Shown here: in pieces, positions 14,305-64,000 of the stretch | Position numbering within the stretch: position 1 is the first letter of the stretch | How the letters are laid out: every line of letters begins with the position of its first letter | Assembly: GCF_900115955.1 (NCBI RefSeq) | Contig: NZ_FOYL01000008.1 | Coordinates: forward strand, 62,001 to 126,000 | Length of the DNA: 64,000 bases | DNA from: Lentzea waywayandensis | GTDB lineage: Bacteria; Actinomycetota; Actinomycetes; Mycobacteriales; Pseudonocardiaceae | Direction: 5' to 3' | Position numbers and translations under genes: made by a program | Notes under the pieces: model-generated | Seen by the model: only the letters and a program-made list of their open reading frames with translations | Told to the model about the DNA's origin: nothing | Databases searched by the model: none

Positions 14305-16227
14305 CTACCCCAATCGGCCGAGCACGGCGCTCACCACGAGGAAGAGCACGACGACCACCGTCGTCGCCATCACCGCGGACATGGCCCACCCCGAGCCCTG
14401 CGCTTCGTCGGCGGGGTCGTCCTCCTGCGGAGCCTCGGGAACGAACGCCAGCGACCGGGCCGGTTCCTCGCGCACCGGCCAGTGGTCGTCGTGCCGCGGC
14501 GCCGGTCGGGGTGCGCTTCCGGTAGATGGCTTGGGAAGCAACAGAACACCCGCGTCGCGCAGCACCACGTGCGCGACGGGCTCCTTCTCCGACAGCTCGC
14601 TCCAGAACTCCAGCACCGAGGCCAGGAACGCGGCGGGCAGCGGCCCGGAAGTGGTCTTCTCGAGGTGCTGGGTCCCGGCGATGACGACCGCCTCCTTCAC
14701 CCGGCTGGAGCCGGCCGTCGTGATGAGCTTGACGAGCCACGCCGCGGGCTCCGACTCGCCGAAGGTGTTGTGCGCGAGCACGATCTTGAGCACCTGGATC
14801 CTGCTCTCGACGTTGTCGGGCACCGCCATCAGCACGTTGGCGCCCGTCGGGGTCACCTCGTTCATGCGCCCCACGACCAACCTGATCGCCTCGACCGGAT
14901 CGCCCGCCCGCAGGAACTGCTGGTGCGCGTCGGTGATCCGGCCGTTCTGGATCAGAGCAGCCGCGATGTCCTTGACGGGCAACGGGAAGATGGACGGGTC
15001 GTTCGGTGCGACGCCGAGGTTCACCAGCCAGCTCCGCCAGTGCTGCACGAGATCGGGTGTGCCGAGCGGCTTGCCGGGCGCGACCACGTGGTCGCGCACG
15101 AACCGCTGGATCTCCTCCTGCCCCTGGTAACGCGCACGGAGGAGGTCGGCGAGCAACGTGTGCCACCTGCCGTCGACGGCGTGCGCGGGCGGGAAGAGCG
15201 CTGGGTTCTGCCCGTGCCCGGCCCGCAGCTGCGCGTGCATCAACCCGTCGAACAGCAGCTCCTCCAGCCACTGCGGCGGGTTGCGGAGCAGTTCGCTGAT
15301 CGCGGAGCCGCTCTGCTGGGCCGCCCAGCGCACGACCATGTCCGGGTTGGTGCCGTTGCGCAGCCGCGGGTCGTGCACGTGCACCAGGCCCGCGATGTCC
15401 GCCTCGGTGATGCCCAGCTCCTCGGCGATGATCAGGTCCAGCAACGCCCGCATCGACGCCGAACCGCGGTGCGCCGGGGTACGGCGCCCGGCTGCGGCGA
15501 GCTGCGCCAGCCACCCGAGCGCCTCGTCCGCGCGGCGCGGAAGGGACTCCGGCAGCTCGTCACGATCCGGCTCCAGCCAGCGCGCGACCCGGCGGGCGCT
15601 CAGGTTGTCCGACTGCTCGGCGGGCCACTGCCCGGTGACGCTCGGACGCTTGTCCAGCACCGGCGTGCTCAGCGGGAACGTCATCCAGATGTGCTCGCCC
15701 ACCACCGCGCTCGGCAACGCCGTGACGAGGCGGCCGATCACGGCCGCGACCTCGGCGGGGGAGCCGGCCACCGCGACGCGTCTGCGGCGTTCGGCCAGCG
15801 CCGTGAGCGGACCCAGCAGCACGGACGGTTCCACCTCGGGCAGGGAGACGGGGCGCGGTTCGTGACCGAGCCTGCCGTCCTGGCCCACCAGCGCGACGCC
15901 GTACGCCCACACCTCGGCGGGATCCACCGCGGCGGGCGCGAACAGGAACTGGCAGCTGCCCGCCCGCCCGAACGCGCCACCCCGGCCCTGCACGGTGAAG
16001 CACCAGTGCGGACCGTGGTCCTCGACGTCGACCTTCTGCAGTCCCCACACCGGGAACCGGTCGTTGTCGCGCGCGTCCTCCGGCGGCTGGTGCACGACGT
16101 CGTCCTGAAGGTCGTGCGCCGCCCTCACGAACGCGGGCGCGGGCGCCGTGCCCCGCCGCGAATCGGTGTACAGCGCGAAGCCGCCACCGGCATGGTCACC
16201 CCACTCAACGACGACGTGTTCGGTCAC
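14305..16227 (-). CDS. GTPase-associated protein 1 (GAP1)-like protein
   Basis: The protein has 640 aa. It begins with a beta-rich region (EHVVVEWGDHAGGGFALYTDSR) that I associate with the N-terminal domain of actinobacterial GTPase-associated protein 1. A long middle helical region and a C-terminal segment follow, ending in a membrane helix (MSAVMATTVVVVLFLVV) that tail-anchors it. The GTG at 16227 overlaps the stop of the zinc-ribbon GTPase by 4 nt (GTGA), so the pair is translationally coupled, which is the hallmark arrangement of such systems. It probably holds or regulates the GTPase at the membrane. The family name comes from memory and should be confirmed by a profile search. Confidence 0.72.
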   Translation of the reverse strand: MTEHVVVEWGDHAGGGFALYTDSRRGTAPAPAFVRAAHDLQDDVVHQPPEDARDNDRFPVWGLQKVDVEDHGPHWCFTVQGRGGAFGRAGSCQFLFAPAAVDPAEVWAYGVALVGQDGRLGHEPRPVSLPEVEPSVLLGPLTALAERRRRVAVAGSPAEVAAVIGRLVTALPSAVVGEHIWMTFPLSTPVLDKRPSVTGQWPAEQSDNLSARRVARWLEPDRDELPESLPRRADEALGWLAQLAAAGRRTPAHRGSASMRALLDLIIAEELGITEADIAGLVHVHDPRLRNGTNPDMVVRWAAQQSGSAISELLRNPPQWLEELLFDGLMHAQLRAGHGQNPALFPPAHAVDGRWHTLLADLLRARYQGQEEIQRFVRDHVVAPGKPLGTPDLVQHWRSWLVNLGVAPNDPSIFPLPVKDIAAALIQNGRITDAHQQFLRAGDPVEAIRLVVGRMNEVTPTGANVLMAVPDNVESRIQVLKIVLAHNTFGESEPAAWLVKLITTAGSSRVKEAVVIAGTQHLEKTTSGPLPAAFLASVLEFWSELSEKEPVAHVVLRDAGVLLLPKPSTGSAPRPAPRHDDHWPVREEPARSLAFVPEAPQEDDPADEAQGSGWAMSAVMATTVVVVLFLVVSAVLGRLG

Positions 16228-45962: not shown

Positions 45963-45997
45963 TCAGTTCGGCGAACAGGTCAGCAGCATCAGTGTGA
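45836..45997 (+). CDS. Possible small membrane protein (53 aa)
   Basis: A GTG-initiated frame with high GC3 encodes FWWHVLAPCWPVSLWAGAIV followed by a Gly/Ala-rich helix. It overlaps the 3' end of the M56 gene by 35 nt. Upstream in-frame stops suggest it may be the tail of a decayed gene linked to the CsoR-like box. Evidence is weak. Confidence 0.3.
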   Translation: MQSPQTFWWHVLAPCWPVSLWAGAIVLAGSTGAAVGLFASATVSSANRSAASV

Positions 45998-46892
45998 ACA
46001 TCGCCGCGGACGCGCCGGCGAGGGGGAGCGCCATGGCGGTGATGCTGGCGATCCCGCCCGAAACCAGCCTGCGCGTGCGATTCGGCAGCCGGTGCCGCTG
46101 CAGGCGGTCCAGACGCACCTCCAATGCGTCCCTGCTCATCGCGAGGGCGGAGTTCGGAGCGCCGTGGCACGACACGCGCAAGAGGGCGGCTCGGACGGTG
46201 TCGGCGCCGTGGGTGCGCGCGGCGGTCAGGTCGGCTGACATCTCGACGAGTTCGCCGATCGCGTTCGCCGCGCGCTTGAACAGCGGCAGGATCGGCAGTG
46301 CGGCGGCTACCGCGTTCGCGGCGGCGACCAGCAGGTGATGACGTCCGTCGAGGTGCGCTCGCTCGTGATCGAGGACGGCGTCGACCTCGTCGGGGTTCAG
46401 GTGGCGGTGTAGTCCTTCTGTGGCGACAACGATGCCGGGTTTGCCCGCGAGGCTGAACGCGAGCGGGCGGTCGTGGTCGAGCCACACCGTGGGGTGCGCG
46501 CCGGGTTCGCGTCGTCCGGCGAGGCGCAGGACGGAGAGGTGTTCCTCGCGGGCGCGGGCCCTTTGCCGGGCGCCGCGTGCGCCGACGATCGCGCACCGAA
46601 TGAGCAGCGCGGTCACCAGAGTGCCGCCGGCGATGCCGCTGATCGCTTCGATCGTGGGTGTGGTGCCGTGGGTCACCGACTCCCAGCAGTGGTGCAGGTT
46701 GTCGAGGGCGGCGAGGCCGTGCTCGGGCAGCAGGAGCAGCACCATGGCGACGGCCGAGGTAGCCACGACCGCGATGATCGAGCTGAGCCAGGCGGCGACG
46801 GCGACCGCAGGGTCGCTGAGTCGCCGCAGCAGGCGCGGTGCCAGCCAGCCCACCGCGGCGGACCCGAGCAGCAGGGCCAGCGCGACAGTCAT
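45963..46892 (-). CDS. M56-family (BlaR1-like) membrane metallopeptidase, copy 1
   Basis: The protein has 309 aa with four or more membrane helices and the zinc motif HERAH (LDHERAHLDGRHHL), as in M56/BlaR1. Such proteases cleave the BlaI repressor to induce target genes. The ATG overlaps the BlaI stop (ATGA). The sensor domain of BlaR1 is missing, so the inducing signal must be read by membrane helices or a partner. It is a paralog of the pair at 60.5-61.8 kb. Confidence 0.85.
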   Translation of the reverse strand: MTVALALLLGSAAVGWLAPRLLRRLSDPAVAVAAWLSSIIAVVATSAVAMVLLLLPEHGLAALDNLHHCWESVTHGTTPTIEAISGIAGGTLVTALLIRCAIVGARGARQRARAREEHLSVLRLAGRREPGAHPTVWLDHDRPLAFSLAGKPGIVVATEGLHRHLNPDEVDAVLDHERAHLDGRHHLLVAAANAVAAALPILPLFKRAANAIGELVEMSADLTAARTHGADTVRAALLRVSCHGAPNSALAMSRDALEVRLDRLQRHRLPNRTRRLVSGGIASITAMALPLAGASAAMFTLMLLTCSPN

Positions 46893-47251
46893 TTCCCGGT
46901 GGCCTTTTTGCGGAAGGCCCGGCGCAGCACCGCGGACTCCTCGGCGGTCGCGGACTGCGCGAAGTGCAGCAGTGCTGCCTCGGGATCGCCGGAGGCCACG
47001 AGCACGTCGCGCACGGCGTTGGTAGCGGCTTCGACGCGGCTGATGGTGGGCTGGTACGAGTAGGCCTTGCCCTCGAGCTCGCGGGACACCCAGCCCTTGC
47101 GGTGCAGGTTGTCCAGCACGGTGAGCACGGTGGTGTAGGCGAGTTGTTTGCCGGTGTCCAGCCGTTCGAGCACCTGGCGCACCTTGAGCGGCTCTCGGGC
47201 GTGCCACAGCACGTCCATCACCGCGGCTTCCAGCTCACCCAGTCCGCGCAT
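46889..47251 (-). CDS. BlaI/MecI-family repressor, copy 1
   Basis: The protein has 120 aa with the winged helix of BlaI (GLGELEAAVMDVLW, KQLAYTTVLTVLDNLHRKGW) and the cleavage/dimer helix after SRVEAATN. ATG 47251 matches copy 2 (61848). It heads a two-gene operon with the M56 protease and is divergent from the MFS pump. Confidence 0.9.
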   Translation of the reverse strand: MRGLGELEAAVMDVLWHAREPLKVRQVLERLDTGKQLAYTTVLTVLDNLHRKGWVSRELEGKAYSYQPTISRVEAATNAVRDVLVASGDPEAALLHFAQSATAEESAVLRRAFRKKATGK

Positions 47252-47311
47252 CGTCGATACCCCTTCCGCAGATGGGAAGTATGCCTGGGCATCGAGACAG
47301 CACACTAAACT

Positions 47312-47325
47312 GAACATCACTGTTC
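47312..47325. promoter_or_regulatory. GAACA-N4-TGTTC palindrome 1
   Basis: GAACATCACTGTTC lies between the BlaI and MFS genes. A near-identical copy lies at 47358-47371. Together they look like operator sites of a TetR-type or BlaI-type repressor. Confidence 0.6.
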
Positions 47326-47357
47326 GACTTATGGCTTGCCTTGGCGTACGTTAACTC

Positions 47358-47371
47358 GAACATACGTGTTC
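47358..47371. promoter_or_regulatory. GAACA-N4-TGTTC palindrome 2
   Basis: CGAACATACGTGTTCG is a perfect 6-bp-arm palindrome just upstream of the MFS ATG. The downstream TetR protein (48812) is the likely ligand-controlled repressor. Confidence 0.65.
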
Positions 47372-47387
47372 GGGTTAAGGGGTAGGT

Positions 47388-48791
47388 ATGAGTCAGATCG
47401 CCGTGCGAACGAACTGGTGGGTGTTGGTGCTGCTGTGCTTGGCCCAGTTCATGGTGATCCTGGACGTGACGGTCGTGAACGTCGCGCTTCCGGTCATCGC
47501 GACCGATCTCGGACTGGACCGCGCAGCGCTGACGTGGGTGGTCACGGCGTACACGCTGTGCTTCGGCGGGCTGATGCTGCTGGGCGGCCGGCTGGCCGAC
47601 ACGATCAGCAGACGGGGCGTGTTCCTCGTCGGGTTGGCCGTGTTCACGGTCGCGTCGCTGGCGTCCGGGTTCGCCGGGAACGCGACCACACTGGTGGTCG
47701 CGCGCGCCGCACAGGGCGTCGGTGCGGCATTGCTGTCCCCGGCGGCGATGTCGATCGTCACCACGACCTTCCACGGGAAGGAGCGCAACCGTGCGCTCGG
47801 CGTGTGGGCGGCGATCGCCGGAGCGGGCGCCGCAGTCGGAGTTCTTCTGGGCGGCCTGTTCACCGCCGGGCCCGGTTGGGAGTGGGTGTTCTTCATCAAC
47901 GTGCCCGTCGGCGTCTTCGTCGCTGTGCTGCTGCCGCGATTGGTGCCGTCCGGCCGAAGTGGACGGACACCGGGGAAGGTCGACATTCCAGGTGCGCTGA
48001 TCGTGGTGCTGGCGATCGGCGCGTTGATCTACGCGCTGGTGCGCGCGGGGGACACCGGCTGGGGTGGCGGCAGCACACCGTACTTCCTCGCCGCCGGCCT
48101 TGGGCTGCTCGTGATGTTCGTCGTCGTCGAACGCAGGGTCGCCGAGCCGTTGGTGCGGCTGGAGCTGCTTGCCCGGCGCCCCGTGGTGGCCGGCAACCTG
48201 GTCATGCTGGCCGCCTCCGGCCTGCTGCTGGCGAACTTCTTCCTCAACTCCCAGTACCTCCAGCACGTGCTGCGCCTCGACGCCCTCGAGACCGGGCTGA
48301 TCTTCCTGCCGGTGGCGCTGGTGATCGGGCTCGGCACCCACCTCGGTGTTCGTGTCGTGAACCGGTTCGGCGGACGCCCGGCCGTCGCCGTCGGGTTCGG
48401 CCTCGCTGCGGTGGGTGCGGTGCTGCTGGCCCAGGTGCCGGCCTCCGGGAACGCCCTGACGGCGGTCCTGCCCGGCTTCCTGATCTCCGGTCTGGGCCTC
48501 GGGGCCACGTTCGTCACGGCGACGACTACGGCGATGGCGCACGTCGGTCCCCATGACGCGGGCACGACGTCGGGCCTGATCAACACCGGGCACGAGCTCG
48601 GGGCCACCCTCGGCATCGCGTTCGTGTCGACCATCGCCGCCCAGAGCCTGCAGGGAGGCGGCCCAATCGCCGGCTTTGGTGCCGCGTTCACCGCGACCGC
48701 GATCGCGGCAGCCGTGGCCGCGGTGGGCGCGACGCTGCTCGTTCCGGCAGGCCGTCCGCCCGCGACCGATGGTCCGGTGTTCGCGCACTGA
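47388..48791 (+). CDS. MFS multidrug efflux transporter (EmrB/QacA type, 14 TM)
   Basis: The protein has 467 aa. It shows the DHA2 signature (QFMVILDVTVVNVALPVI, then LTWVVTAYTLCFGGLMLLGG) and a GRLAD motif A, with about fourteen helices. It pumps drugs using the proton gradient. It is followed 20 nt later by a TetR gene, its probable repressor. Operators are visible upstream. Confidence 0.93.
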   Translation: MSQIAVRTNWWVLVLLCLAQFMVILDVTVVNVALPVIATDLGLDRAALTWVVTAYTLCFGGLMLLGGRLADTISRRGVFLVGLAVFTVASLASGFAGNATTLVVARAAQGVGAALLSPAAMSIVTTTFHGKERNRALGVWAAIAGAGAAVGVLLGGLFTAGPGWEWVFFINVPVGVFVAVLLPRLVPSGRSGRTPGKVDIPGALIVVLAIGALIYALVRAGDTGWGGGSTPYFLAAGLGLLVMFVVVERRVAEPLVRLELLARRPVVAGNLVMLAASGLLLANFFLNSQYLQHVLRLDALETGLIFLPVALVIGLGTHLGVRVVNRFGGRPAVAVGFGLAAVGAVLLAQVPASGNALTAVLPGFLISGLGLGATFVTATTTAMAHVGPHDAGTTSGLINTGHELGATLGIAFVSTIAAQSLQGGGPIAGFGAAFTATAIAAAVAAVGATLLVPAGRPPATDGPVFAH

Positions 48792-54985: not shown

Positions 54986-55267
54986 TCAGGAGCGGACGAG
55001 ACGGGCGATGGCGTTGCTGGCCTCGGCGATCTTTTCGTCCGCCTTGGTGCCGCCTTCGGTGATGGCCTCGCTGACGCAGTGCTTCAGGTGCTCGTCGAGC
55101 AGTCCCAGTGAGACGGCCTGGAGTGCGCGCGTCGCCGCGGAGATCTGGGTGAGCACGTCGATGCAGTAGTCGTCGTTCTCGATCATCCGCTGCAGACCGC
55201 GCACCTGGCCCTCGATGCGCTTCAGGCGGCGCAGGTGGGCTTCCTTGTTGTCGGTGTAGCCGTGCAT
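54986..55267 (-). CDS. csoR: Copper-sensing repressor CsoR
   Basis: The protein has 93 aa, all-helical, with the conserved Cys-His-Cys copper site (NDDYCIDVL; EHLKHCV). Copper release from DNA derepresses the copper operon. It is the first gene of the minus-strand operon, upstream of two CsoR boxes. Confidence 0.95.
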   Translation of the reverse strand: MHGYTDNKEAHLRRLKRIEGQVRGLQRMIENDDYCIDVLTQISAATRALQAVSLGLLDEHLKHCVSEAITEGGTKADEKIAEASNAIARLVRS

Positions 55268-55343: not shown

Positions 55344-55360
55344 ATACCTAAGGGGGGTAT
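55344..55360. promoter_or_regulatory. CsoR box 1
   Basis: ATACCTAAGGGGGGTAT is a typical GC-rich copper-box palindrome (ATACC...GGTAT), 77 bp upstream of csoR. It is suited to autoregulation of the copper operon. Confidence 0.75.
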
Positions 55361-55459: not shown

Positions 55460-55478
55460 CTACTATGCGTCTTAGTAG
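55460..55478. promoter_or_regulatory. TACTA-N7-TAGTA operator A (multicopper oxidase)
   Basis: CTACTATGCGTCTTAGTAG ends 18 nt before the oxidase ATG. It has the same arms and spacing as six further sites in the last 9 kb and is probably a BlaI operator. Confidence 0.75.
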
Positions 55479-55496
55479 ATGATTCTGGAGGACGAC

Positions 55497-57005
55497 ATGA
55501 CTGCTCAGCCCGCATCGTTCGGCCGCCGGGGCCTCTTCCGGCTCGGTTTCGGCCTCGCGGTGGCCACAAGCGCCGCAGGCTGCGCGAGCGGCGGCGGGCC
55601 CTCCGGCGGAACATTGATCGGGCCCAGTTCGCCAAAGGTGGCGGCCGCCGAGCGCGCCCGTCAGATCGAGGGTGCGCGGAAGACGTCGGTCAAGCTCGCC
55701 GCGGTTCAGACCGAAGTCGACCTGGGTGGTGTTACGGCGAGCACCTGGTCGTACGGTGACCTTCCCGGCAAGGAGATCAGGATCAGGCGCGGCGATCTGT
55801 TGAACGTCGAGCTGCGCAACCAGCTGCCCCAGCCGACGAGCATCCACTGGCACGGCCTTGCACTGCGCAACGACATGGACGGCGTACCGGACCTCACTCA
55901 GAGTGAGATCGTGTCGGGTGGTTCCTTCACCTACGAGTTCACCGCGCCAGACCCCGGAACCTATTGGTTCCATCCGCACTCGGGCGTGCAGCTCGATCGC
56001 GGCCTCTATGCGCCGCTGATCGTGGAGGACCCGGAGGACGGCAGTAACTACGACACCGAACTCGTCATCGTGCTCGACGACTGGCTCGACGGACTCGGCC
56101 GGACACCGGATGCCGTGTTCGACGAGCTGCGCGCCAACGGCATGCCCGGCATGGACCACGGCTCGATGCCCGGCATGCCCGCCATGCCCAAGTCCGAGCT
56201 GCTCGGGGGCGATGCCGGCGACGTCATCTATCCGCACGTGCTCGCCAACGGCAAGGTGTGGAAGGCCCCGCGGACCTTCGCCACCAAGCCGGGGCAGCGC
56301 ATCCGGTTGAGGTTGATCAACGCGGCGGCCGACACGGTGTTCCGGGTCGGTGTGCCAGGGGCGCCGATGACCGTGACCCACGCGGACGGCTTCCCCGTGG
56401 TGCCGGTGGAGCTGGACGTCGTGCTGCTGGGCATGGGGGAGCGGCTTGACTGCGTCGTGACCGTGCCTGATCGGACTGTGCCGGTGCTCGCCCTCGCCGA
56501 GGGCCGTGGGTTGTTCGCTCAGGTAACGCTGTCCACCGGAGTGGCGGCGTCAGCGGACAGTGAAGCGCTCGCCGCGGAACTGGCGAAGCTGGTGGTGCCC
56601 GAGATGAACGCACTCCGGGCGGCGGACGGCGTCGCCCTGCCGTTGCGTGAGCCGGACGTGACCCACGATCTCGTCCTGGAAGGCCCCGGTGACAAGTACA
56701 CCTGGACGATCAACGGCAAGGTCTACGACCCGACAGAAGGACTGCCGATCCGCTCCGGGCAGGTGGTACGGCTGCGGATGCAGAACAAGTCGAAGATGTT
56801 CCATCCCATGCACGTGCACGGCCACACGTTCCAGGTGCGGGCGAACGGCAAGATCGGTCCTCGCCGGGACACCGCGATCGTGTTGCCCAACCGGGAACTG
56901 ATCGTGGACTTCGAGGCCGACAACCCCGGCCAGTGGCTCACCCACTGCCACAACGTGTACCACGGCGAGGCAGGGATGATGGCGGTGCTGTCCTATGTGG
57001 AGTGA
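55497..57005 (+). CDS. Secreted multicopper oxidase (CueO/laccase-like)
   Basis: The protein has 502 aa after the ATG at 55497, which follows GGAGG by 5 nt. A Tat-like RRGLFRLG and lipobox-like SAAGC lie near the start. All four copper-ligand blocks are present: HWHG, HPHSG, HPMHVHGHTF and THCHNVYHGEAGMM. A Met-rich insert (GMPGMDHGSMPGMPAMP) suggests cuprous-ion oxidation. It is under both a CsoR-like and a TACTA-N7-TAGTA site. Confidence 0.93.
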   Translation: MTAQPASFGRRGLFRLGFGLAVATSAAGCASGGGPSGGTLIGPSSPKVAAAERARQIEGARKTSVKLAAVQTEVDLGGVTASTWSYGDLPGKEIRIRRGDLLNVELRNQLPQPTSIHWHGLALRNDMDGVPDLTQSEIVSGGSFTYEFTAPDPGTYWFHPHSGVQLDRGLYAPLIVEDPEDGSNYDTELVIVLDDWLDGLGRTPDAVFDELRANGMPGMDHGSMPGMPAMPKSELLGGDAGDVIYPHVLANGKVWKAPRTFATKPGQRIRLRLINAAADTVFRVGVPGAPMTVTHADGFPVVPVELDVVLLGMGERLDCVVTVPDRTVPVLALAEGRGLFAQVTLSTGVAASADSEALAAELAKLVVPEMNALRAADGVALPLREPDVTHDLVLEGPGDKYTWTINGKVYDPTEGLPIRSGQVVRLRMQNKSKMFHPMHVHGHTFQVRANGKIGPRRDTAIVLPNRELIVDFEADNPGQWLTHCHNVYHGEAGMMAVLSYVE

Positions 57006-57008
57006 TGG

Positions 57009-57947
57009 TCACCGGCCAGTGGGGTAGGGCCAGGCGTTGGGCTTGCACACCTTGCCGTCCTTGCTCACCCGGTCAGTGCCCAATGCGGCCAGGTAGTCGT
57101 TCGAGACGCCCCACGACTGCTGCATCATCACGGGCGCCAGCGCACCGTTCTCCTGACAGGACTTGTGGTCGTAGCCCAGGCCGTGGCCGACCTCGTGGTT
57201 GACCACGTACTGCTTGTACTCCGCCAGGGCACCCTGGAACGAGACCGCGCCCCGCACCCAGCGCGTGACGTTGATCGTCACGTTGTCGCCGTTGACGCAC
57301 GAGCCCTCGAACGGGATCGCGAACCCGCACACGTCGCGGGTTGTCATCTGCGAGGTGAGCCTGATCCTCAGGTCGGGCTTGCCGGAGTCGACGCGCTGGA
57401 AGCCGTGCTGCTTGTCGCCGATCCAGCCGCGCGGGTCGGTGAGGATCGTGCTGACGTCGGTGGCGAAGGTCTCGGGGCCGCCGACGAGCTGCACACCGTC
57501 TTCGATCTCGACGGTGTAGGTGACTCGGTTCGGCCCACCCACCGCGGGGCTGGTTCCGGGAACAACCGTCCACTTCTTCCCACCTTGGACGGTGAAGGCT
57601 CCGCCGGGTGGTAGTTCGGCGGACGCGGTCGCCGCACCGAAGACCTTCGGATCGGGGTTCGGTGCGGGAGGTGTCCGGTTGGTGAGCGTGTGTCCAGCTT
57701 GATCGTGCGCGACGGCATTGGGCTGATCGAGTTGCCGCGTCGGAGCTGCTGCCTCGGGAGGCGGGGGTGTCAACGTGTCACGCACGGCCACGGCACTCAG
57801 TCCGAAGAGGGCGAGCACGGCGACCGCCGCCACGATCCACTCTCGGACGGGGCGTCGACGAGACGGCCGGGCTGAACGGCCGCGGACCGGATCCAGCCTG
57901 GCGGCCAGCGGCCTGCCGGCCGGGCGTTCGCGCAGCTGCTGCTTCAT
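57009..57947 (-). CDS. DUF3152 metalloprotease-like secreted protein
   Basis: The protein has 312 aa. A short basic N-terminus is followed by one membrane helix, a Pro-rich linker and a DUF3152-type catalytic domain with the zinc motif HEVGHGLGYDHKSC. It probably acts outside the membrane. ATG 57947 is preferred to GTG 57965, the latter being a possible leaderless start. It converges on the oxidase with 3 nt between stops. Confidence 0.85.
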   Translation of the reverse strand: MKQQLRERPAGRPLAARLDPVRGRSARPSRRRPVREWIVAAVAVLALFGLSAVAVRDTLTPPPPEAAAPTRQLDQPNAVAHDQAGHTLTNRTPPAPNPDPKVFGAATASAELPPGGAFTVQGGKKWTVVPGTSPAVGGPNRVTYTVEIEDGVQLVGGPETFATDVSTILTDPRGWIGDKQHGFQRVDSGKPDLRIRLTSQMTTRDVCGFAIPFEGSCVNGDNVTINVTRWVRGAVSFQGALAEYKQYVVNHEVGHGLGYDHKSCQENGALAPVMMQQSWGVSNDYLAALGTDRVSKDGKVCKPNAWPYPTGR

Positions 57948-57970
57948 CGCGCAACAGCATGCCACAGCAC

Positions 57971-57989
57971 CTACGAAGATCCGTAGTAG
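57971..57989. promoter_or_regulatory. TACTA-N7-TAGTA operator B (DUF3152 gene)
   Basis: CTACGAAGATCCGTAGTAG has the same half-sites and N7 spacing with one change. It lies within 25 bp of the DUF3152 start. Confidence 0.7.
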
Positions 57990-58200
57990 GGAGAGAGGCC
58001 GGTCCCTGGGGGAGAGTGCTGCCGAAGGGCGGATGCCGGAGGTGCCTGCGGCATCGGCCCGCGACCGGTCAATGGCCGGCTGACGCCCCGCCTCGGATCG
58101 CCGCGCTAGATCGCGGCTCTGGCCGCCTGGTTGGTGCTGGACGCGACCGGTGTGTTGTGAGGCAGGAATCTTCTCCGTCGTACTGGCGCCGCCGCGTAGG

Positions 58201-58219
58201 TTACTATTTTCGATAGTAG
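58201..58219. promoter_or_regulatory. TACTA-N7-TAGTA operator C
   Basis: TTACTATTTTCGATAGTAG lies just upstream of the CPxC membrane-protein gene. Confidence 0.75.
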
Positions 58220-58235
58220 ATACGCGGGGGTGTCG

Positions 58236-58691
58236 ATGGACGGCGCTCAGGTGCAGGCCTGGTCGTGGAGTTGGGCTCGCGCGCTCACCGGCGCAGTGCT
58301 GAGCGCTGCGGTCGTCGGTGTGCCGACCGATGTCATCGACAACTCGATGTTCACCCGCATGACCCAGGTCCGGTGGTGGGAACTGCCCGTGCTCCTGCTC
58401 ACGGCGGTCCTCACGGCCACGTGGGCGGGTATCCGGCCAGGTGTTCAGCAGGACCGTGCTGGATCAGCCCGCGTTTACGGCGGCTCATTGCTCAGCGCGC
58501 TCGCGGTCGGGTGCCCCGTCTGCAACAAGATCGTCATGGCGTTGCTGGGAGTGTCCGGCGCGCTCGGTGTCTGGGCTCCGCTGCAACCGCTGCTCGCCTT
58601 GGTGTCGTTGGCCGTGCTCGCCACTGCCGTGGTCGTGAGGTGGCGGCGGCGCGAGTGCGCGACTGTCGAGTGTTCACCCGTAGGGGTCTAG
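58236..58691 (+). CDS. Four-TM membrane protein with CPxC motif
   Basis: The protein has 151 aa with about four helices and a conserved-looking VGCPVCNKIVMALLG motif at a helix start. GGGGG 5 nt before ATG 58236 is a good ribosome site; GTG 58230 is an alternative. The function is unknown; the cysteine pair could bind metal or form a redox disulfide. Confidence 0.75.
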   Translation: MDGAQVQAWSWSWARALTGAVLSAAVVGVPTDVIDNSMFTRMTQVRWWELPVLLLTAVLTATWAGIRPGVQQDRAGSARVYGGSLLSALAVGCPVCNKIVMALLGVSGALGVWAPLQPLLALVSLAVLATAVVVRWRRRECATVECSPVGV

Positions 58692-58701
58692 CCGACCGGA
58701 T

Positions 58702-58720
58702 GTACTACTCGTGATAGTAA
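58702..58720. promoter_or_regulatory. TACTA-N7-TAGTA operator D
   Basis: TACTACTCGTGATAGTA lies about 30 bp before the transglycosylase ATG, right after the CPxC gene. Confidence 0.75.
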
Positions 58721-58750
58721 GTCACGCGTTGATGTCCGGCAGGAGGCTTC

Positions 58751-59932
58751 ATGAGGGTGCCGCACCTGGTGCTGGCGGTGTGCGTGTTCGCCTTGGCGGC
58801 CTTCCTGGCGATTCAGTTCGTGTTCGTGCTGCCGTTCATGGTGCAGAACGGCAACCAAGGTGCAGTCGCCGGAGCAACAACAGGGCAGGCCACCTTCGAC
58901 ATCGCCAAGATTCCACCGCTGGCTCGGGAAATGGCTCCGATCATCACGTCGTTCGTCGCCACGGACTGCCCTGAGCTCAATCCGTTGCGGGTCATCGCCG
59001 AGGTGCAGGCCGAGTCCGGCTGGCGGCCGACCGCGTGGAGCAACGACAGCAACGGTGGTGCGGCCGGTCTGCTCCAGATCAACCAGGCGAACTGGAAGAA
59101 CCTCGGTGGACAGGCGTGGGTGAGCGTTCCGCCTCCGTCCGGTGCGGACATCTTCGATCCGTCCGTCCACATGAGACTTGGACTCAAGTTCCTGTGCGGC
59201 AACTTGCGCGGTATGGCCGCGCACATCAAGCAGACTGGTAAATCACTCGATCCTCACGACGCGATGAGCGTGTGTCACATCGCAGGGTGCGGCCGGGTGA
59301 TGTTGAGCCGCACCGGAATTCCTCAGTCAGGAGAAGCAGGATGCGGCGATGAGTGCGTGTCCCTCATCCGCCGATATCTCGACAACATCCGCAAGTACGA
59401 ACGTGAGTGGGCCGCCGCCCCGAGCGCGCCCTCCGGTGACGGAGGACCGGTACCAGGCGGCGCGGATCTCACCGGGCTGCCCGCACCGGTGCCCTATACC
59501 GGGCCGCCCACAGGATGCGTCGTCGACGACCCCACGACAGCGGGATGCCTCACCGCGGCCACCGCCCACGCGTTGCAGCAGATCCGCAGCGCCTTCGGGC
59601 CGCAGATCGCCTCGGTCACCTGCTATGGAGCGCGACCAGAGACACCGTTCAGCGACCACCCGACCGGCAAGGCCTGCGACGTGTTTCCGGACCGGTTCGG
59701 CGTGTTCCCCGCTGGCGAGCGGCTCGCGGCAGGCTGGCGCATGGCCTCCTGGACGCGGGCCTACGCGGGTCCGTTGAAGATCCGCTACATCATCTGGCAG
59801 GGCCGCTACTGGGATCCGACCACCGGCGACCAGGGCGGGTGGGGCGAGAAGTACACCGGCGCGGGTGTGTACGACGTCACCAATCCCACCGGCGGTCACT
59901 ACGACCACCTGCACATCAGCTTCACCGCGTGA
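58751..59932 (+). CDS. Membrane-anchored lytic transglycosylase with C-terminal ARB_07466-like domain
   Basis: The protein has 393 aa. An N-terminal signal or anchor helix is followed by an SLT domain with the catalytic Glu in IAEVQAESGWRP and AAGLLQIN. The C-terminal domain (YGARPETPFSDHPTGKACDV and GGHYDHLHISF) resembles the ARB_07466-like cell-wall-associated domain. It probably cuts peptidoglycan at the cell surface. Confidence 0.87.
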   Translation: MRVPHLVLAVCVFALAAFLAIQFVFVLPFMVQNGNQGAVAGATTGQATFDIAKIPPLAREMAPIITSFVATDCPELNPLRVIAEVQAESGWRPTAWSNDSNGGAAGLLQINQANWKNLGGQAWVSVPPPSGADIFDPSVHMRLGLKFLCGNLRGMAAHIKQTGKSLDPHDAMSVCHIAGCGRVMLSRTGIPQSGEAGCGDECVSLIRRYLDNIRKYEREWAAAPSAPSGDGGPVPGGADLTGLPAPVPYTGPPTGCVVDDPTTAGCLTAATAHALQQIRSAFGPQIASVTCYGARPETPFSDHPTGKACDVFPDRFGVFPAGERLAAGWRMASWTRAYAGPLKIRYIIWQGRYWDPTTGDQGGWGEKYTGAGVYDVTNPTGGHYDHLHISFTA

Positions 59933-59947
59933 TCGAGGAGCGATGCG

Positions 59948-60535
59948 ATGGCAGCCGGCAGTCCACGAGGTGTTCTGCTGGCCGTACTGGCTGCGGGTGG
60001 TCTGCTGCTGGTGTCCGTGTTGATCGACAGGGACACCAACGGAGAGCAGGCACCGGTGGCCACCTCGGCTCCACCGTCGTTGCAATCGCCGCCGGCGACC
60101 GAGGAACCTGTCGGGCCTGCTGCTCGATCCGCGATAGGCGAAACACCGCCGGCGCCGCTCTCGGGCGCACCGACAGCGGCGGCGGGCACGAACTTCGCCG
60201 ATCCCCGGTCCGTGGCGAGGGTCTACGTCGAGGCCGCGCACTCGGCTGCGCCGGACGAGATCGGCCGTGCCAACCGCCGGGTGCTGCCGTACCTCGCGCC
60301 TGAGAACCCCGACAACCCGCGTGGTTCGCTGGTCGTCGAGGCGACCGGCAAGGCGGTCGTGATCAGCGTGGAGGTGGCTGTCGGCAACGAGGAGCAGTCG
60401 GCGGTGACCACGAAGTCGACATGGCGATCAGGCGACGGCCGGCTCCGCGAAACATTCGTCACGTTGCGTCGCCAACCTGACGGACGCTGGCTTGTCAGGG
60501 CCGAGATGGCGCAGCTACAGCCTGCCGACCGGTGA
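59948..60535 (+). CDS. Membrane-anchored hypothetical protein
   Basis: The protein has 195 aa with one N-terminal helix, a Pro/Ala-rich linker and a compact C-terminal beta domain. It lies 15 nt after the transglycosylase gene and probably works with it. No family is recognised. Confidence 0.72.
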   Translation: MAAGSPRGVLLAVLAAGGLLLVSVLIDRDTNGEQAPVATSAPPSLQSPPATEEPVGPAARSAIGETPPAPLSGAPTAAAGTNFADPRSVARVYVEAAHSAAPDEIGRANRRVLPYLAPENPDNPRGSLVVEATGKAVVISVEVAVGNEEQSAVTTKSTWRSGDGRLRETFVTLRRQPDGRWLVRAEMAQLQPADR

Positions 60536-60544
60536 GCGGCCTGG

Positions 60545-61483
60545 TCAGGCGGGACAAGCCACGGTCACGACGGCGAACATCGCGCCCGCAGCGACCAGGA
60601 CGGGAAGAGCCATGGCGGTGAGGCCTGCCAGGCCGCAGGAGAAGAGCTGACGGCGTCGGCTTGCCGGAGCGGGTCCGTCGAGCAGGCGCTCGACGCGCAC
60701 GTCCATGGAGGTGCCGCTCATCGCCAGTGCCGTGCCCGGCGCACCGTGGCGAGACACCTTGAGCAGGGCACTCCGCACCGCGTCCGCACCGCATTCGCGG
60801 ACAGCCGCCGCGTCAGCGACCAACTCCACCAGCTCACGCAGCATGCCGGGTGCCAGCTTGAACAGCGGCAGGAACGGGAAAGCGCCGGCCATCGCCTCGC
60901 CGATCGCGACGATCAGATGATGGCGACCGGTCAGATGGGCGCGTTCGTGCGCAAGCACGGCGTCCACCTGGGGAGCGGTGAGCTGCTTGGCCAGGCCGTC
61001 GGTCGCCACGATCACACCAGGTCGGCCGGTGAGGCTGAACGCCAGTGGCTCGCCGTGCTCGAGCCACAACGTCTCACCATCGCGACGTGCGGCGATGCGC
61101 AGGACCGCGAGCTGGTCAGCTCGTCTGCGTGCACGTCGTCGCGCACTGCCCACCGCGCCGACGACCAGACGCGCGCTCAGGCCGAGTAGCAACAAGGCGC
61201 CTACGACGCCGCTGACGGCCTCGACACTGGGCGGAGTGCCGTGCTGGACCGAGGACCAGCAGTTGTCCAGTGCGGCAAGCAGGGGTTCCCCGAATCCGTG
61301 GTTCGGGAGGAGGAGAAGGACGACGCCGCCGAGCGCGGCGAGAGCCACAGCCGCCGCAGACGTCAGCCACGCGACTATGGCGACCAGTGGATCGCCGCCG
61401 TTCACGACCCGGCGAGCCAGGACCGTGGGTGCGAGCCAGCTCATCAGCGCCGCGCCGATCAGCAACGAGACCGCGACCGTCAT
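60545..61483 (-). CDS. M56-family (BlaR1-like) membrane metallopeptidase, copy 2
   Basis: The protein has 312 aa with several membrane helices and the zinc motif HERAH in VLAHERAHLTGRHHL. ATG 61483 overlaps the BlaI stop. It is a close paralog of the M56 protein at 45.9 kb and, like it, lacks a penicillin-binding sensor domain. Confidence 0.88.
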   Translation of the reverse strand: MTVAVSLLIGAALMSWLAPTVLARRVVNGGDPLVAIVAWLTSAAAVALAALGGVVLLLLPNHGFGEPLLAALDNCWSSVQHGTPPSVEAVSGVVGALLLLGLSARLVVGAVGSARRRARRRADQLAVLRIAARRDGETLWLEHGEPLAFSLTGRPGVIVATDGLAKQLTAPQVDAVLAHERAHLTGRHHLIVAIGEAMAGAFPFLPLFKLAPGMLRELVELVADAAAVRECGADAVRSALLKVSRHGAPGTALAMSGTSMDVRVERLLDGPAPASRRRQLFSCGLAGLTAMALPVLVAAGAMFAVVTVACPA

Positions 61484-61848
61484 GACGCGGACGACCTCTT
61501 CTTCCTCGGCAGGGCTTGGCGCAGGAGCTCGGACTCGCGTTCGGTCGCTGATTGCGCGAAGTGCATCAGCACGGCTTCGGGATCACCCGACGAGGCGAGG
61601 ACATCGCGGACGGTGCGGGCGGCTGCCTCGGCGCGACTCAACGCAGGCTCGTACCGGTAGGCCTTGCCTTCGAGTTCGCGAGTGACCCAGCCCTTGCGGT
61701 GCAGGTTGTCGAGCACGGTCATCACGGTGGTGTACGCGAGCTTCTTTCCCGTTTCGAGCAGGTCGAGCACCTCGCGCACCTTGAGTGGCTGCTGCTCTTG
61801 CCACAGGACGTTCATCACCGCGGCTTCCAACTCGCCGAGTCCGTGCAT
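61480..61848 (-). CDS. BlaI/MecI-family repressor, copy 2
   Basis: The protein has 122 aa with the same winged-helix pattern as copy 1 (GLGELEAAVMNVLW, KKLAYTTVMTVLDNLHRKGW). It is the likely regulator of the TACTA-N7-TAGTA sites in this part of the window, including one 46 bp upstream of its own gene. Confidence 0.92.
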   Translation of the reverse strand: MHGLGELEAAVMNVLWQEQQPLKVREVLDLLETGKKLAYTTVMTVLDNLHRKGWVTRELEGKAYRYEPALSRAEAAARTVRDVLASSGDPEAVLMHFAQSATERESELLRQALPRKKRSSAS

Positions 61849-61893
61849 CTTTCCTCCTGGCGGAAAGGATACGGCTGGAGAGGCCGGTCCTGA

Positions 61894-61912
61894 CTACGAT
61901 TGGCTATAGTAG
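61894..61912. promoter_or_regulatory. TACTA-N7-TAGTA operator E (BlaI autoregulation)
   Basis: CTACGATTGGCTATAGTAG lies 46 bp upstream of the BlaI start. It matches site B exactly in the half-sites. Confidence 0.75.
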
Positions 61913-61986
61913 TCGCTGGCCGGGGTCCCCCCCGTTCCGGCCTCCAACCTCGTCGAGGACAACCCCCAGGCTCGGCGAGAAGAACG

Positions 61987-62022
61987 TTCAGGCTGGGGCG
62001 GACTCGTCCACCCCAGCCTGAA
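61987..62022. terminator. Terminator of the DUF305 gene
   Basis: A 12-bp stem (TTCAGGCTGGGG and CCCCAGCCTGAA) follows the DUF305 stop on the minus strand with a 12-nt loop. Confidence 0.75.
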
Positions 62023-62041
62023 TGCCTTTGGTGCCTCAGGT

Positions 62042-62653
62042 CTACTTCAGCAGACCCTGCATCTCGGTGATCTCAGCCTGCTGCGCGGTGATGATGTCCT
62101 GCGCGAGCTTCTTGCTGTCGGCGTTGCTGCCCTTTTCGATGTGGGTCTTGGCCATGGTGATCGCACCTTCGTGGTGCTTGATCATCATTTCCATCCACAT
62201 CTTGTCGAACTCGGCGCCCGTGGCCTGCCCGAGCTTGGCCATCTCCTCGGCGGTCATCATGCCGTTGCCGTTGCCCATCGAGCCGTGGTCCATTCCGGGC
62301 ATCGACGACCCCGTCGGAGCGGCACCCCACTTGGAGAGCCACGCCGTCATCGTCTTGATCTCCGGGTCCTGCGCACCCTCGATGCGCTTGGCCAGATCGG
62401 TGACCTTCGGGTTCGTGCTCTTGCCCGGCATCATCTTGGCCATGTCCAGCGCCTGCTGGTGGTGGGCGATCATCTCCTGGGCGAACTGCACGTCGTGATC
62501 GTTGTGGTCCGCCGCCTGCTGGCCCGAAGCCGGGGTCGAGGCAGCGGTCGAGTTGTGCTGCATGCCACCCATGTCGTTGCTGCTACTACACCCCGTGACG
62601 AGTGCGACAGCCGCGACGCCTGCGACGCCGATTCCGATCAGAGACTTCCTCAT
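62042..62653 (-). CDS. DUF305 lipoprotein
   Basis: The protein has 203 aa with a lipobox (VTGCSS). The mature part is Met/His-rich (DMGGMQHN, FAQEMIAHHQQALDMAKMM, MMIKHHEGAI), as in copper-induced DUF305 proteins. It probably binds copper at the outer membrane face. Terminator and operators nearby fit a copper-linked gene. Confidence 0.92.
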   Translation of the reverse strand: MRKSLIGIGVAGVAAVALVTGCSSSNDMGGMQHNSTAASTPASGQQAADHNDHDVQFAQEMIAHHQQALDMAKMMPGKSTNPKVTDLAKRIEGAQDPEIKTMTAWLSKWGAAPTGSSMPGMDHGSMGNGNGMMTAEEMAKLGQATGAEFDKMWMEMMIKHHEGAITMAKTHIEKGSNADSKKLAQDIITAQQAEITEMQGLLK

Positions 62654-62708
62654 TGGTGGTTCTTCCTTTTGTGCTTGGGGAAAGTGACTGCCTCTGGGAT
62701 CGGGCCGA

Positions 62709-63083
62709 TCACAACCTCAACACGCACAGGGAACTGAGCAAGTCACGACCGCCTCTGGGTGGCGGCCGTTCGGGAGTTCGTGGCCACGCCGCGGACGCCA
62801 GGAGGTGACCCGTGGTCGGGCGCGTCGTGCGCAGCAGCAACCACGCGAGCAGGAGCAGTGATACGACGGCGCAGAGCACGGCAACGCACAGGTGCAACAT
62901 CTCGTGCGTCGGCTGCGGTACCGGATCCTCGGAAGGCGGAGCGTGGTGCGCGCTCGCGGACATGGACCCGTGCGCGAGCGACATGTCGTTGCTCACGTTG
63001 ACGTGGTGCATCCCGATGACGCCGAGGAACAGCGCGCACAGCAGGATCCACTGGATCGTCCTGCTGCGCGTGCCCGGAGCCAT
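62709..63083 (-). CDS. DUF6153-like small membrane protein
   Basis: The protein has 124 aa with two hydrophobic helices and a His-rich loop between (HHVNVSNDMSLAHGS), as in small DUF6153 proteins. ATG 63083 is used because the operator at 63086-63102 would otherwise be coding. It is probably copper-responsive. Confidence 0.75.
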   Translation of the reverse strand: MAPGTRSRTIQWILLCALFLGVIGMHHVNVSNDMSLAHGSMSASAHHAPPSEDPVPQPTHEMLHLCVAVLCAVVSLLLLAWLLLRTTRPTTGHLLASAAWPRTPERPPPRGGRDLLSSLCVLRL

Positions 63084-63085
63084 GT

Positions 63086-63102
63086 AACTACCGTACCTAG
63101 TA
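63086..63102. promoter_or_regulatory. TACTA-N7-TAGTA operator F (DUF6153-like gene)
   Basis: AACTACCGTACCTAGTA abuts the ATG of the DUF6153-like gene. One half-site base differs from the others. Confidence 0.7.
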
Positions 63103-63206
63103 GGTTGCATCACTGCTTTGTACGGGTTGCCGCTCCAGTTGGTTCAACAGCGGCAGGAAGACTGCGGCCATCAGCAACACCCGGTCACGAGCGACAGCGC
63201 GGCGAC

Positions 63207-63225
63207 CTACTAGGAGAGATAGTAG
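63207..63225. promoter_or_regulatory. TACTA-N7-TAGTA operator G
   Basis: CTACTAGGAGAGATAGTAG lies between the divergent DUF6153-like and NlpC/P60 genes. Confidence 0.72.
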
Positions 63226-63302
63226 ACAATCTCGTGACGTTGCCGTAATTTGCGCCAAGGCATCGGGGGAGGCCTGTTCCCGACTACGGAGGTATGCGCG
63301 AC

Positions 63303-64000
63303 GTGACGTCGCAACGATTCAAGCGCGGCACACGAGGTGCACTGGCGGCTGCGGCGGTTCTGGCGGTGGTCGGCAACACATCGGGCGCGGCAGGAGCTCA
63401 GCCCGCAGGCGACCCGGTCAAGCAGTACGAGGAGCTGAGCGGGCAGGCGGAGAAGCTCAACGACGACGTGCTCAAGGCCCAGGAGAACCTCGACGCCAAG
63501 AAGGCTGAGCTGACCAAGGCCGGCGCGGACCTGAACCAGGCCAAGCAGGCCGAGGGGCAGCTGCGCGGTCAGGTCGATGTGCTCACGGAGGTCACCTTCC
63601 AGGGTGCACGGTTCAACGGGCTCTCGGCGCTGCTCGTCAGCGACTCCCAGCAGGACTTCCTCAACCGCATGTCCGCGCTCGAAGTGCTGGCGGCCGACAA
63701 CGCGGAGTCGATGGACAAGCTGTCCGCCGCGGTGGCGCAGGCGACCGACGCTCAGCAGCGTGCTGAGAAAGCGGCCAACGAGGCGGCGGCGGTCGCGGAC
63801 GACCTCAAGAAGCGCAAGTCCGACCTGGACGGCCGGATCGTTGAGCTCCGCAAGGCCGTGAACAACCTCAGTTCGACCCAGAAGGCCGGGCTCGGGTTCG
63901 GTCAGGTGAAGGACACCGGCACATACCTGGGGCCTCCCGGTGCGGCCAACACGGCTCTGCAGGCGGCCCTGTCGAAGCGGGGCTCGCAGTACCAGTGGGG
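63303..64000 (+). CDS. NlpC/P60 endopeptidase, N-terminal part (cut by window end)
   Basis: A signal peptide (GALAAAAVLAVVGNTSGAA) is followed by a long coiled-coil region (EKLNDDVLKAQENLDAKKAEL and later) and the start of the NlpC/P60 domain (LSKRGSQYQWG) at the window edge. The layout matches RipA-like cell-wall hydrolases. GTG 63303 has a GGAGG 10 nt upstream; ATG 63294 is too near that site. The catalytic Cys lies beyond the window. Confidence 0.87.
   Translation, partial: MTSQRFKRGTRGALAAAAVLAVVGNTSGAAGAQPAGDPVKQYEELSGQAEKLNDDVLKAQENLDAKKAELTKAGADLNQAKQAEGQLRGQVDVLTEVTFQGARFNGLSALLVSDSQQDFLNRMSALEVLAADNAESMDKLSAAVAQATDAQQRAEKAANEAAAVADDLKKRKSDLDGRIVELRKAVNNLSSTQKAGLGFGQVKDTGTYLGPPGAANTALQAALSKRGSQYQW

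Follow-up and report, generated by a model that had tools for sequence, protein, structure and literature searches.

The 64,000-nucleotide stretch of Lentzea waywayandensis DNA analysed here (the window; contig NZ_FOYL01000008.1, positions 62,001 to 126,000) carries, between its positions 55460 and 63225, seven copies of the dyad TACTA-N7-TAGTA. One of them precedes a gene for a BlaI-type repressor (BlaI copy 2) that is encoded with an M56-type membrane metalloprotease, and the others precede genes related to copper handling and the cell envelope. In what we consider the best explanation of the whole, with a probability of about 0.62, this BlaI/M56 pair de-represses an extracytoplasmic response to copper or thiol stress. 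The case is built on features that can be read in the sequences: the motif, the specificity of its spacing, its placement, its co-occurrence with BlaI, the content of the putative regulon, a sensor domain that is missing from the protease, and a coupled pair of cysteines in that protein.

All seven palindromes named in a preliminary description of this interval were recovered with the N7 spacing in a pattern scan of the window, four of them exact (55461, 58202, 58703 and 63208) and three with one mismatch (57972, 61895 and 63086), although most of the start positions given there were one base low, the true start being the quoted base or the next. Each dyad lies upstream of the gene to which it had been assigned (7/7), at a distance that ranges from just before the start codon (55461, 57972 and 63086) to 69 bases (63208), and in several promoters it would cover the likely region from -10 to the start. 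Of the gene names proposed, those of the multicopper oxidase, DUF3152, SLT and Penicillinase_R proteins stand by Pfam, the DUF6153 match is below threshold, and the CPxC protein belongs to no Pfam family. Oriented along the gene that follows, every one of the seven sites has a perfect upstream half, TACTA, and all mismatches fall in the downstream half; the same tendency is weaker across 56 one-mismatch sites from our own and related regions, with 20 mismatches in the upstream and 36 in the downstream half.

The dyad is also concentrated in this part of the genome. With up to two mismatches the window holds 10 matches, against a mean of 0.32 in shuffled sequence. In the 10.15-Mb assembly (10,153,412 bases in 33 contigs, 99.6% complete), the genome-wide search suggested in the preliminary description places the exact dyad at only 4 positions, all inside the interval rather than at random elsewhere. 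With at most one mismatch there are 26 places, 7 of them in the interval (binomial P ~1e-16), and for TACTA-N7-TMGTA, which admits the variant TCGTA in one half, 6 of 8 places are in the interval. Position in the genome, together with the counts in relatives given below, leads us to reject a chance origin of the dyads.

Comparison among relatives argues that BlaI is the protein that reads the dyad, a claim we hold with great confidence; we strongly infer that it binds there. Among 24 Lentzea genomes, our own included, the 16 that encode a relative of BlaI copy 2 contain 47 exact dyads, located in 8 of them, whereas the 8 genomes without such a relative contain 0 (Fisher P 0.02 at the level of genomes). 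When the distance from site to BlaI gene was checked for 80 exact sites (47/47 inside the genus and 33/38 outside it), 35 of the 47 genus sites shared a contig with a BlaI match, all 35 within 20 kb, and the remaining 12 were on contigs of 7-30 kb that hold no BlaI match. Upstream of 90 BlaI genes from 60 genomes, our own among them (90 of 105 PF03965 rows, 14 below 30 bits and one 49-residue fragment having been left out), the N7 dyad is exact in 5 cases and has one mismatch in 16 more (21/90 in total); a reversed-sequence control gave 0 exact and 1 one-mismatch site in the same regions, and no N6 dyad was found upstream of these genes. The dyads before BlaI genes include four other families of the order, and BlaI copy 2 itself has the one-mismatch site at 61895, as expected of autoregulation.

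A similar picture emerges from 80 named BlaI loci, divided into 38 with copper genes, defined as a tblastn match to queries of the window type, and 42 without. The 38 copper-bearing loci contain 98 exact N7 dyads, at least one in 33 of them, where ~0.03 would be expected from base composition. Across all 80 loci there are no exact dyads at spacings 3, 5, 6, 8, 9 or 11, 3 at spacing 4 and 9 at spacing 10, which may overlap N7 sites, and four permuted or reversed palindromes gave 0 exact matches. The 22 Streptomyces and Kitasatospora loci of this set, in which only the BlaI query matched, have no exact dyad. A logo of 114 sites, paralogues included, shows a symmetric flanking C (74%) and G (77%), the flanks having played no part in selection, and the extended consensus is CTACTA-N7-TAGTAG. 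The related-region and named-locus sets share several genomes (e.g. L174, L175, L179, L180 and L183), the named loci L182 and L191 overlap by ~1.6 kb, and the gene calls in relatives, which were made with a GC-position script, contain some false frames.

We consider it very unlikely that the dyads are read instead by CsoR, a two-component regulator or some other regulator that travels with BlaI. A csoR gene does adjoin the oxidase, and a response regulator is present in 5 of the 7 plasmid loci that we read, but the absence of exact dyads from Lentzea genomes without a BlaI relative and the dyads before BlaI genes themselves in several families point elsewhere, and CsoR is the only regulator besides BlaI in a Pfam scan of the interval genes. 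The DUF6153 family bears on CsoR directly. Its 27 copies, in 22 of the 24 Lentzea genomes (L147-L173), include 18 that are associated with BlaI, 17 of them on the same contig as a BlaI gene and within 11 kb of it, and the last (G014:C44) on a short contig without BlaI in a BlaI-bearing genome. Immediately ahead of the coding region, all 18 have a TACTAGGTA-S-S-GTAGT dyad that departs from the motif by 0-1 mismatch. None of the remaining 9 copies, of which 6 are in genomes that encode no BlaI relative, has a dyad there (the best match has 5 mismatches), and all 9 carry a ATACCCCTAGGGGGTA box upstream. We take this box to resemble known CsoR boxes, and by eye it is similar to ATACCTAAGGGGGGTAT beside csoR at 55344, while exact CsoR-type patterns have no match in the window. 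Because DUF6153 promoters carry either the dyad (18/18 vs 0/9) or the CsoR-like box, we argue that the dyad is not read by CsoR, and the family appears to be wired either way, through a promoter swap between two copper regulators.

There may be more than one BlaI that reads the dyad. The PF03965 search of our own genome found two BlaI genes, both in the window (copy 1 near 47 kb and copy 2 in the cluster), with 72% identity between their products; copy 2 scores 96.4 bits against the winged-helix repressor family PF03965, for which the cut-off is 22.6. The single BlaI/M56 pair of the preliminary description thus becomes two, and in four genomes (G002, G005, G007 and G011) the sole BlaI is of the copy-1 type and a dyad still precedes DUF6153, so copy 1 may bind the dyad too. 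Its own promoter has no dyad. Separately, two palindromes of the form GAACA-N4-TGTTC lie at 47300-47390 of the window, between BlaI copy 1 and an MFS-type pump, and a similar palindrome precedes the copy-1 BlaI in G012 and G017; these could be operators of BlaI copy 1 or of a TetR regulator.

A BlaI/M56 pair is in itself a known kind of system. The best solved-structure match of BlaI copy 2 is PDB 2g9w, a member of the same repressor family that we take to be Mycobacterium tuberculosis BlaI (Rv1846c); its M56 neighbour is presumably Rv1845c, which would be without a sensor domain. In two order-level relatives, G041 and G053, whose BlaI looks 2g9w-like by eye, a one-mismatch N7 dyad lies upstream of BlaI, but unlike at our locus the M56 partners lack the cysteine pair, and copper genes were absent from the flanks out to 1.5 kb. 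The predicted targets of M. tuberculosis BlaI include ATP-synthase genes (PMC7924339). Staphylococcus aureus BlaI/BlaR1 shares the repressor family, and BlaR1 is the top fold match of our M56 protease; its sensor domain is acylated by penicillin (PMC9834060) and the S. aureus operator core is TACA-N2-TGTA (PMC7253601), whereas the Lentzea protein is without that domain and the Lentzea operator is TACTA-N7-TAGTA. CopY/CopR belongs to the same superfamily as BlaI and copper genes are under control in both, but CopY binds RNYKACANNYGTMRNY and detects copper directly, by means of CxC motifs (PMC7253601). BlaI copy 2 has no cysteine among its 122 residues, and so no C-terminal CxC copper site, and scores 46 bits against the CopY_TcrY equivalog with its cut-off of 121.95; the missing CxC, the different operator and the low score lead us to reject membership of CopY. 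Actinobacterial CsoR/RicR copper regulons hold a multicopper oxidase and a P-type ATPase, an overlap in gene content, but their box differs from the dyad, and DUF6153 occurs here in both wirings.

A precedent for wide spacing may come from Clostridium thermocellum BlaI_0696, for which DAP-seq gave inverted GTCTAT repeats five bases apart (PMC8457756). If the repeat points inward, it equals CTA-N7-TAG and would be an independent precedent for a wide-spaced CTA/TAG dyad. That regulon is described as small, with its own operon, which includes two BlaR1s and a hypothetical gene, and few other sites (PMC8457756). We found no publication on a BlaI copper/envelope regulon in actinobacteria among the matches listed in a literature search that was thin on subscription journals. 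As far as this literature goes, and with the M. tuberculosis BlaI operator outside the comparison, the N7 operator, the copper/envelope regulon, its spread on plasmids and the coupled cysteines appear to be new.

The M56 partner of BlaI copy 2 is a HExxH protein of 312 residues that passes the Pfam cut-off for M48 (35.6 bits, cut-off 20.3) and does not reach that for M56 (23.2 bits, cut-off 31). In a model built from 49 sequences (pLDDT 86), four long helices are candidates for crossing the membrane, the chain ends at residue 312, three residues after its last helix (276-309), and there is no penicillin-binding sensor domain. The four best PDB matches in a fold search are all S. aureus BlaR1 entries (E 0.014-0.044, TM 0.30-0.34). 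In the relatives examined, 85 of the 90 BlaI genes are followed by a HExxH frame, nearly all of ~280-340 residues, which, BlaR1 being larger, is too short for a BlaR1-like penicillin sensor. Judged by the mechanism of the family, the M56 protein probably relieves repression by BlaI. A classical beta-lactam-inducible bla regulon is highly improbable here, even though the BlaI and M56 families are present, wall hydrolases are among the site-bearing genes and, as a counterpoint to the argument from targets, L,D-transpeptidases lie near BlaI on two Mycolicibacterium plasmids: besides the missing penicillin-binding domain, none of the 7 site-bearing genes is a beta-lactamase or penicillin-binding protein by Pfam. 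Beta-lactam sensing is therefore rejected, and with it a link that the preliminary description had suggested.

In place of a penicillin sensor, the protease has Cys75 in a loop at residues 59-85 and Cys310 in its C-terminal tail, and by the topology of BlaR1 both the loop and the tail would face outward. An alignment of 48 sequences plus the window protein (from 59 candidate frames in the 80 named loci, less 10 that were truncated, wrong or doubtful and L191) has both cysteines in 44/49, neither in 4/49 and only that of the tail in 1/49. A cruder count in windows of 50 and 22 residues over 85 M56 proteins from relatives' genomes gave 49 with both, 22 with neither, and 8 and 6 with a single one. 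At equal flanks of 1.5 kb, copper or envelope neighbours are found for 32 of 47 carriers of the pair and for 1 of 35 others, and outside the genus for 15 of 24 and 1 of 33, respectively. We tentatively propose that the pair is the sensor, an idea that we rate a little below even odds. An alternative that we hold to be less probable than not is that the cysteines form a constitutive structural disulfide and that a small regulon protein, DUF6153 or the CPxC protein, is the true sensor. The joint absence of both cysteines in 4/49 fits a structural bond, and the genes for both small proteins are recurrent site-bearing members, but the pair sits where BlaR1 has its sensor, and its carriers are enriched for copper and envelope neighbours, though not in a phylogenetically independent way.

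What the dyads would control is best seen across genomes. The set in the window comprises the multicopper oxidase, DUF3152, a CPVC membrane protein, an SLT transglycosylase, BlaI-M56, DUF6153-DUF305 and NlpC/P60. Elsewhere in the assembly, beyond the sites of the preliminary description, one-mismatch sites precede copper-related genes. The one at C12:127457 stands before the gene of a small DUF2933 protein, which is followed by that of a heavy-metal P-type ATPase; those on contig C30 stand before another DUF2933/oxidase/ATPase set and before a DUF6153-like gene (the C30 genes being named by resemblance). Over 139 sites with at most one mismatch in our own and related regions, the recurrent downstream genes encode DUF6153, NlpC/P60, BlaI, multicopper oxidase, the CPxC protein, DUF3152 and SLT; in fewer genomes, by Pfam of representatives, they encode apolipoprotein N-acyltransferase (Lnt), prolipoprotein diacylglyceryl transferase (Lgt), DsbD/CcdA, a DsbA-like thioredoxin, cytochrome oxidase subunit I, DUF326, sortase, DUF3105 and Ig-like surface proteins.

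Plasmids carry related gene sets. We found 108 plasmid records with a BlaI relative, 55 of them from Rhodococcus; 30 were listed, and we read seven annotated regions (L254-L260). An M56 or M48 neighbour is annotated in six of these, L259 (Gordonia) being the exception. A multicopper oxidase occurs in 4, Lgt-type genes in 3, Lnt in 3, M23 in 5, CcdA in 3 and DUF305 in 5, and the two Mycolicibacterium plasmids, which are related, have RipB/RipC with an L,D-transpeptidase. From L254 to L260 the exact dyads number 6, 1, 7, 5, 8, 0 and 1, and the reversed palindrome with one mismatch has 2 matches in each of two of the seven loci. On the Tsukamurella plasmid the dyads lie 10 bases before BlaI, in a triple array before an Lgt-family gene, and before Ig-like and TlpA-CcdA genes. 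Copper handling and peptidoglycan hydrolases thus come together, as the preliminary description had it, in a BlaI-type regulon that recurs across genera and on plasmids. Its scope is broader than copper and wall, and in relatives it extends to lipoprotein, disulfide and cytochrome-oxidase genes.

This breadth bears on the nature of the signal, which we think slightly more probably than otherwise to be copper, or copper/thiol stress, outside the membrane. Alternatively, the BlaI regulon may be real and the M56 protease may sense envelope damage or disulfide stress in secreted proteins, with copper genes included as copper proteins are exported. We consider this second possibility unlikely, but not negligibly so. 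Site-bearing Lgt, Lnt, DsbD/CcdA, DsbA-like thioredoxin, sortase, NlpC/P60 and Ig-like proteins in relatives speak for it, as do similar envelope genes at the plasmid loci and the presence of Trx4/CcdA with no recognised copper gene at four loci whose M56 has the cysteine pair (L192, L199, L203 and G033). However, CsoR, metal ATPases, DUF305, DUF6153 and multicopper oxidase often lie nearby, and the DUF6153 copies that elsewhere have a CsoR-like box point to copper.

Several observations weigh against the copper-responsive BlaI/M56 regulon that we favour. A reversed-pattern control in our own assembly matched more often than the motif (9 exact vs 4, and 211 with one mismatch vs 26); we judge this control poor because its arms are other words, and rely instead on position, co-occurrence and permuted palindromes. 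Half of the BlaI-bearing Lentzea genomes (8/16) are without an exact dyad and have only one-mismatch sites in the BlaI regions fetched, two genomes of the group without a BlaI relative (G001 and G018) give marginal PF03965 matches (22.6 and 23.1 bits), and of the 33 exact sites (from 38) that were checked outside the genus, 13 are not within 20 kb of a BlaI match. The C. thermocellum mobility-shift difference is called modest and was obtained with single repeats (PMC8457756). As for the protease, none of its fold matches reaches E 0.001, and the model is at its least certain in places that include the outer loop and the tail. The association of the cysteine pair with copper genes is nearly that of one clade; the tree shows 4 changes and offers 3 independent pairs, which allows us to claim no significance for it, and 11 of the 49 loci whose M56 has the pair show no copper or envelope neighbour (at uneven flanks). 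Finally, 9 exact N7 dyads occur in 8 of the 42 BlaI loci without recognised copper genes, and the dyad also precedes 8 of 36 BlaI genes whose M56 has no cysteine pair; the operator alone therefore does not imply copper.

Taken as a mechanism, our preferred reading would run as follows. BlaI copy 2, and perhaps copy 1 too, would bind CTACTA-N7-TAGTAG and silence dispersed promoters of extracytoplasmic copper and envelope proteins, its own operon included; that BlaI represses the dyad promoters is, in our estimation, highly probable. The membrane protease from the BlaI operon would be the switch, an extracytoplasmic signal activating its cytoplasmic HExxH domain, whereupon BlaI would be inactivated and the regulon opened; we infer repression, proteolytic switching and the signal from the comparisons above. 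We hypothesize that the signal, probably copper or copper/thiol stress, is felt at Cys75 in the outer loop and Cys310 in the tail, which would stand where BlaR1 carries its penicillin sensor, while CsoR would separately read cytosolic copper. More speculatively, and with less than an even chance in our view, the protein may represent a widespread actinobacterial receptor for copper or thiol stress at the surface, an M56 protease in which two external cysteines replace the penicillin sensor and, by binding copper or forming a disulfide, lead to inactivation or cleavage of BlaI and open a plasmid- or island-borne regulon for copper oxidation and export and for envelope rebuilding, the latter through lipoprotein transferases, disulfide enzymes, peptidoglycan hydrolases, sortase and cytochrome oxidase.

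Some further arrangements of dyads and copper genes were seen alongside these. Arrays of three dyads precede Lnt in two Lentzea genomes (L071:3609-3725 and L076:3353-3468) and the Lgt-family gene of the Tsukamurella plasmid (L254:17171-17259), and suggest graded or tight repression of lipoprotein-processing genes. In another genus (L106:6092-7291), BlaI and a divergent gene, by eye ctaB-like (protoheme IX farnesyltransferase), have an exact dyad in front of them. The second copper cluster of our own genome (L006:8600-15100, or C30:293600-300100) has one-mismatch dyads and no BlaI gene that we could see, and its frame 14632-15045 (minus) looks like a C-terminal M56 remnant. Downstream of DUF2933 on C12, L002:1944-2171 reads by eye like the C-terminal part of a multicopper oxidase, perhaps a broken paralogue of the C30 oxidase. 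Heavy-metal P-type ATPases usually carry CPC or CPH; those at L002:3088-5472 (C12) and L006 10200-12700 (C30) have a CPD motif (VVITCPDALGLATP) and, also unusually, an N-terminal stretch ending in HHICDP. The features of the locus are collected in Table 1.

Table 1. Operators, genes and neighbouring regulators of the locus, in window positions.
Feature	Position	Strand	Remarks
Operator, exact	55461..55477	+	1 base before first possible start of multicopper oxidase
Multicopper oxidase	55479..57005	+	Pfam Cu-oxidase_3 E 7e-37, Cu-oxidase_2 E 1.4e-36
DUF3152, putative metallopeptidase-like exported protein	57009..57965	-	Pfam E 3e-73
Operator, 1 mismatch, before DUF3152	57972..57988	-	
Operator, exact, before CPxC membrane protein	58202..58218	+	
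Small membrane protein with CPVC motif	58230..58691	+	No Pfam family matched
Operator, exact, before transglycosylase	58703..58719	+	
SLT lytic transglycosylase-like protein	58751..59932	+	Pfam SLT E 5.7e-6
Uncharacterised protein, next after transglycosylase	59948..60535	+	No Pfam family matched
M56/M48-like membrane metalloprotease	60545..61483	-	HExxH, Cys75 and Cys310, without sensor domain
BlaI copy 2, proposed operator reader	61480..61848	-	PF03965 E 1.8e-27; PDB 2g9w E 2.2e-18
Operator, 1 mismatch, before BlaI copy 2 (putative autoregulation)	61895..61911	-	Kept in near relatives
DUF305 protein, after DUF6153 on same strand	62042..62653	-	Pfam E 3e-51
DUF6153-like small protein	62709..63083	-	Pfam 24.1 bits, below cut-off 27.7
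Operator, 1 mismatch, before DUF6153	63086..63102	-	Kept at 18/18 BlaI-associated genus copies
Operator, exact, before NlpC/P60 gene, also upstream of DUF6153	63208..63224	+	
NlpC/P60 hydrolase, 5' part, runs past window	63294..64000	+	Homologue in L073: NLPC_P60 E 7.7e-26
CsoR-type copper repressor, separate regulator	54986..55267	-	PF02583 E 1.1e-30
CsoR-like box ATACCTAAGGGGGGTAT between csoR and oxidase	55344..55360	Not assigned	By resemblance only
BlaI copy 1	46889..47251	-	
M56 partner of BlaI copy 1	45963..46892	-	Both cysteines present

Nearly all of the HExxH proteins encoded next to BlaI in the relatives examined are too short to include a BlaR1-like penicillin sensor. For one large subclass of such pairs, the locus supplies an explicit operator, a predicted regulon and two residues that are candidates for the sensor. 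We propose that cells meet copper outside the membrane by a coordinated remaking of the envelope, separate from the cytosolic CsoR response, and similar dyad-bearing gene sets on plasmids of Rhodococcus, Mycolicibacterium, Tsukamurella and Nocardia would make this a transferable programme of metal resistance. That the set-up is found again in many relatives, as well as on plasmids, points to a means by which cells may perceive trouble beyond their membrane.

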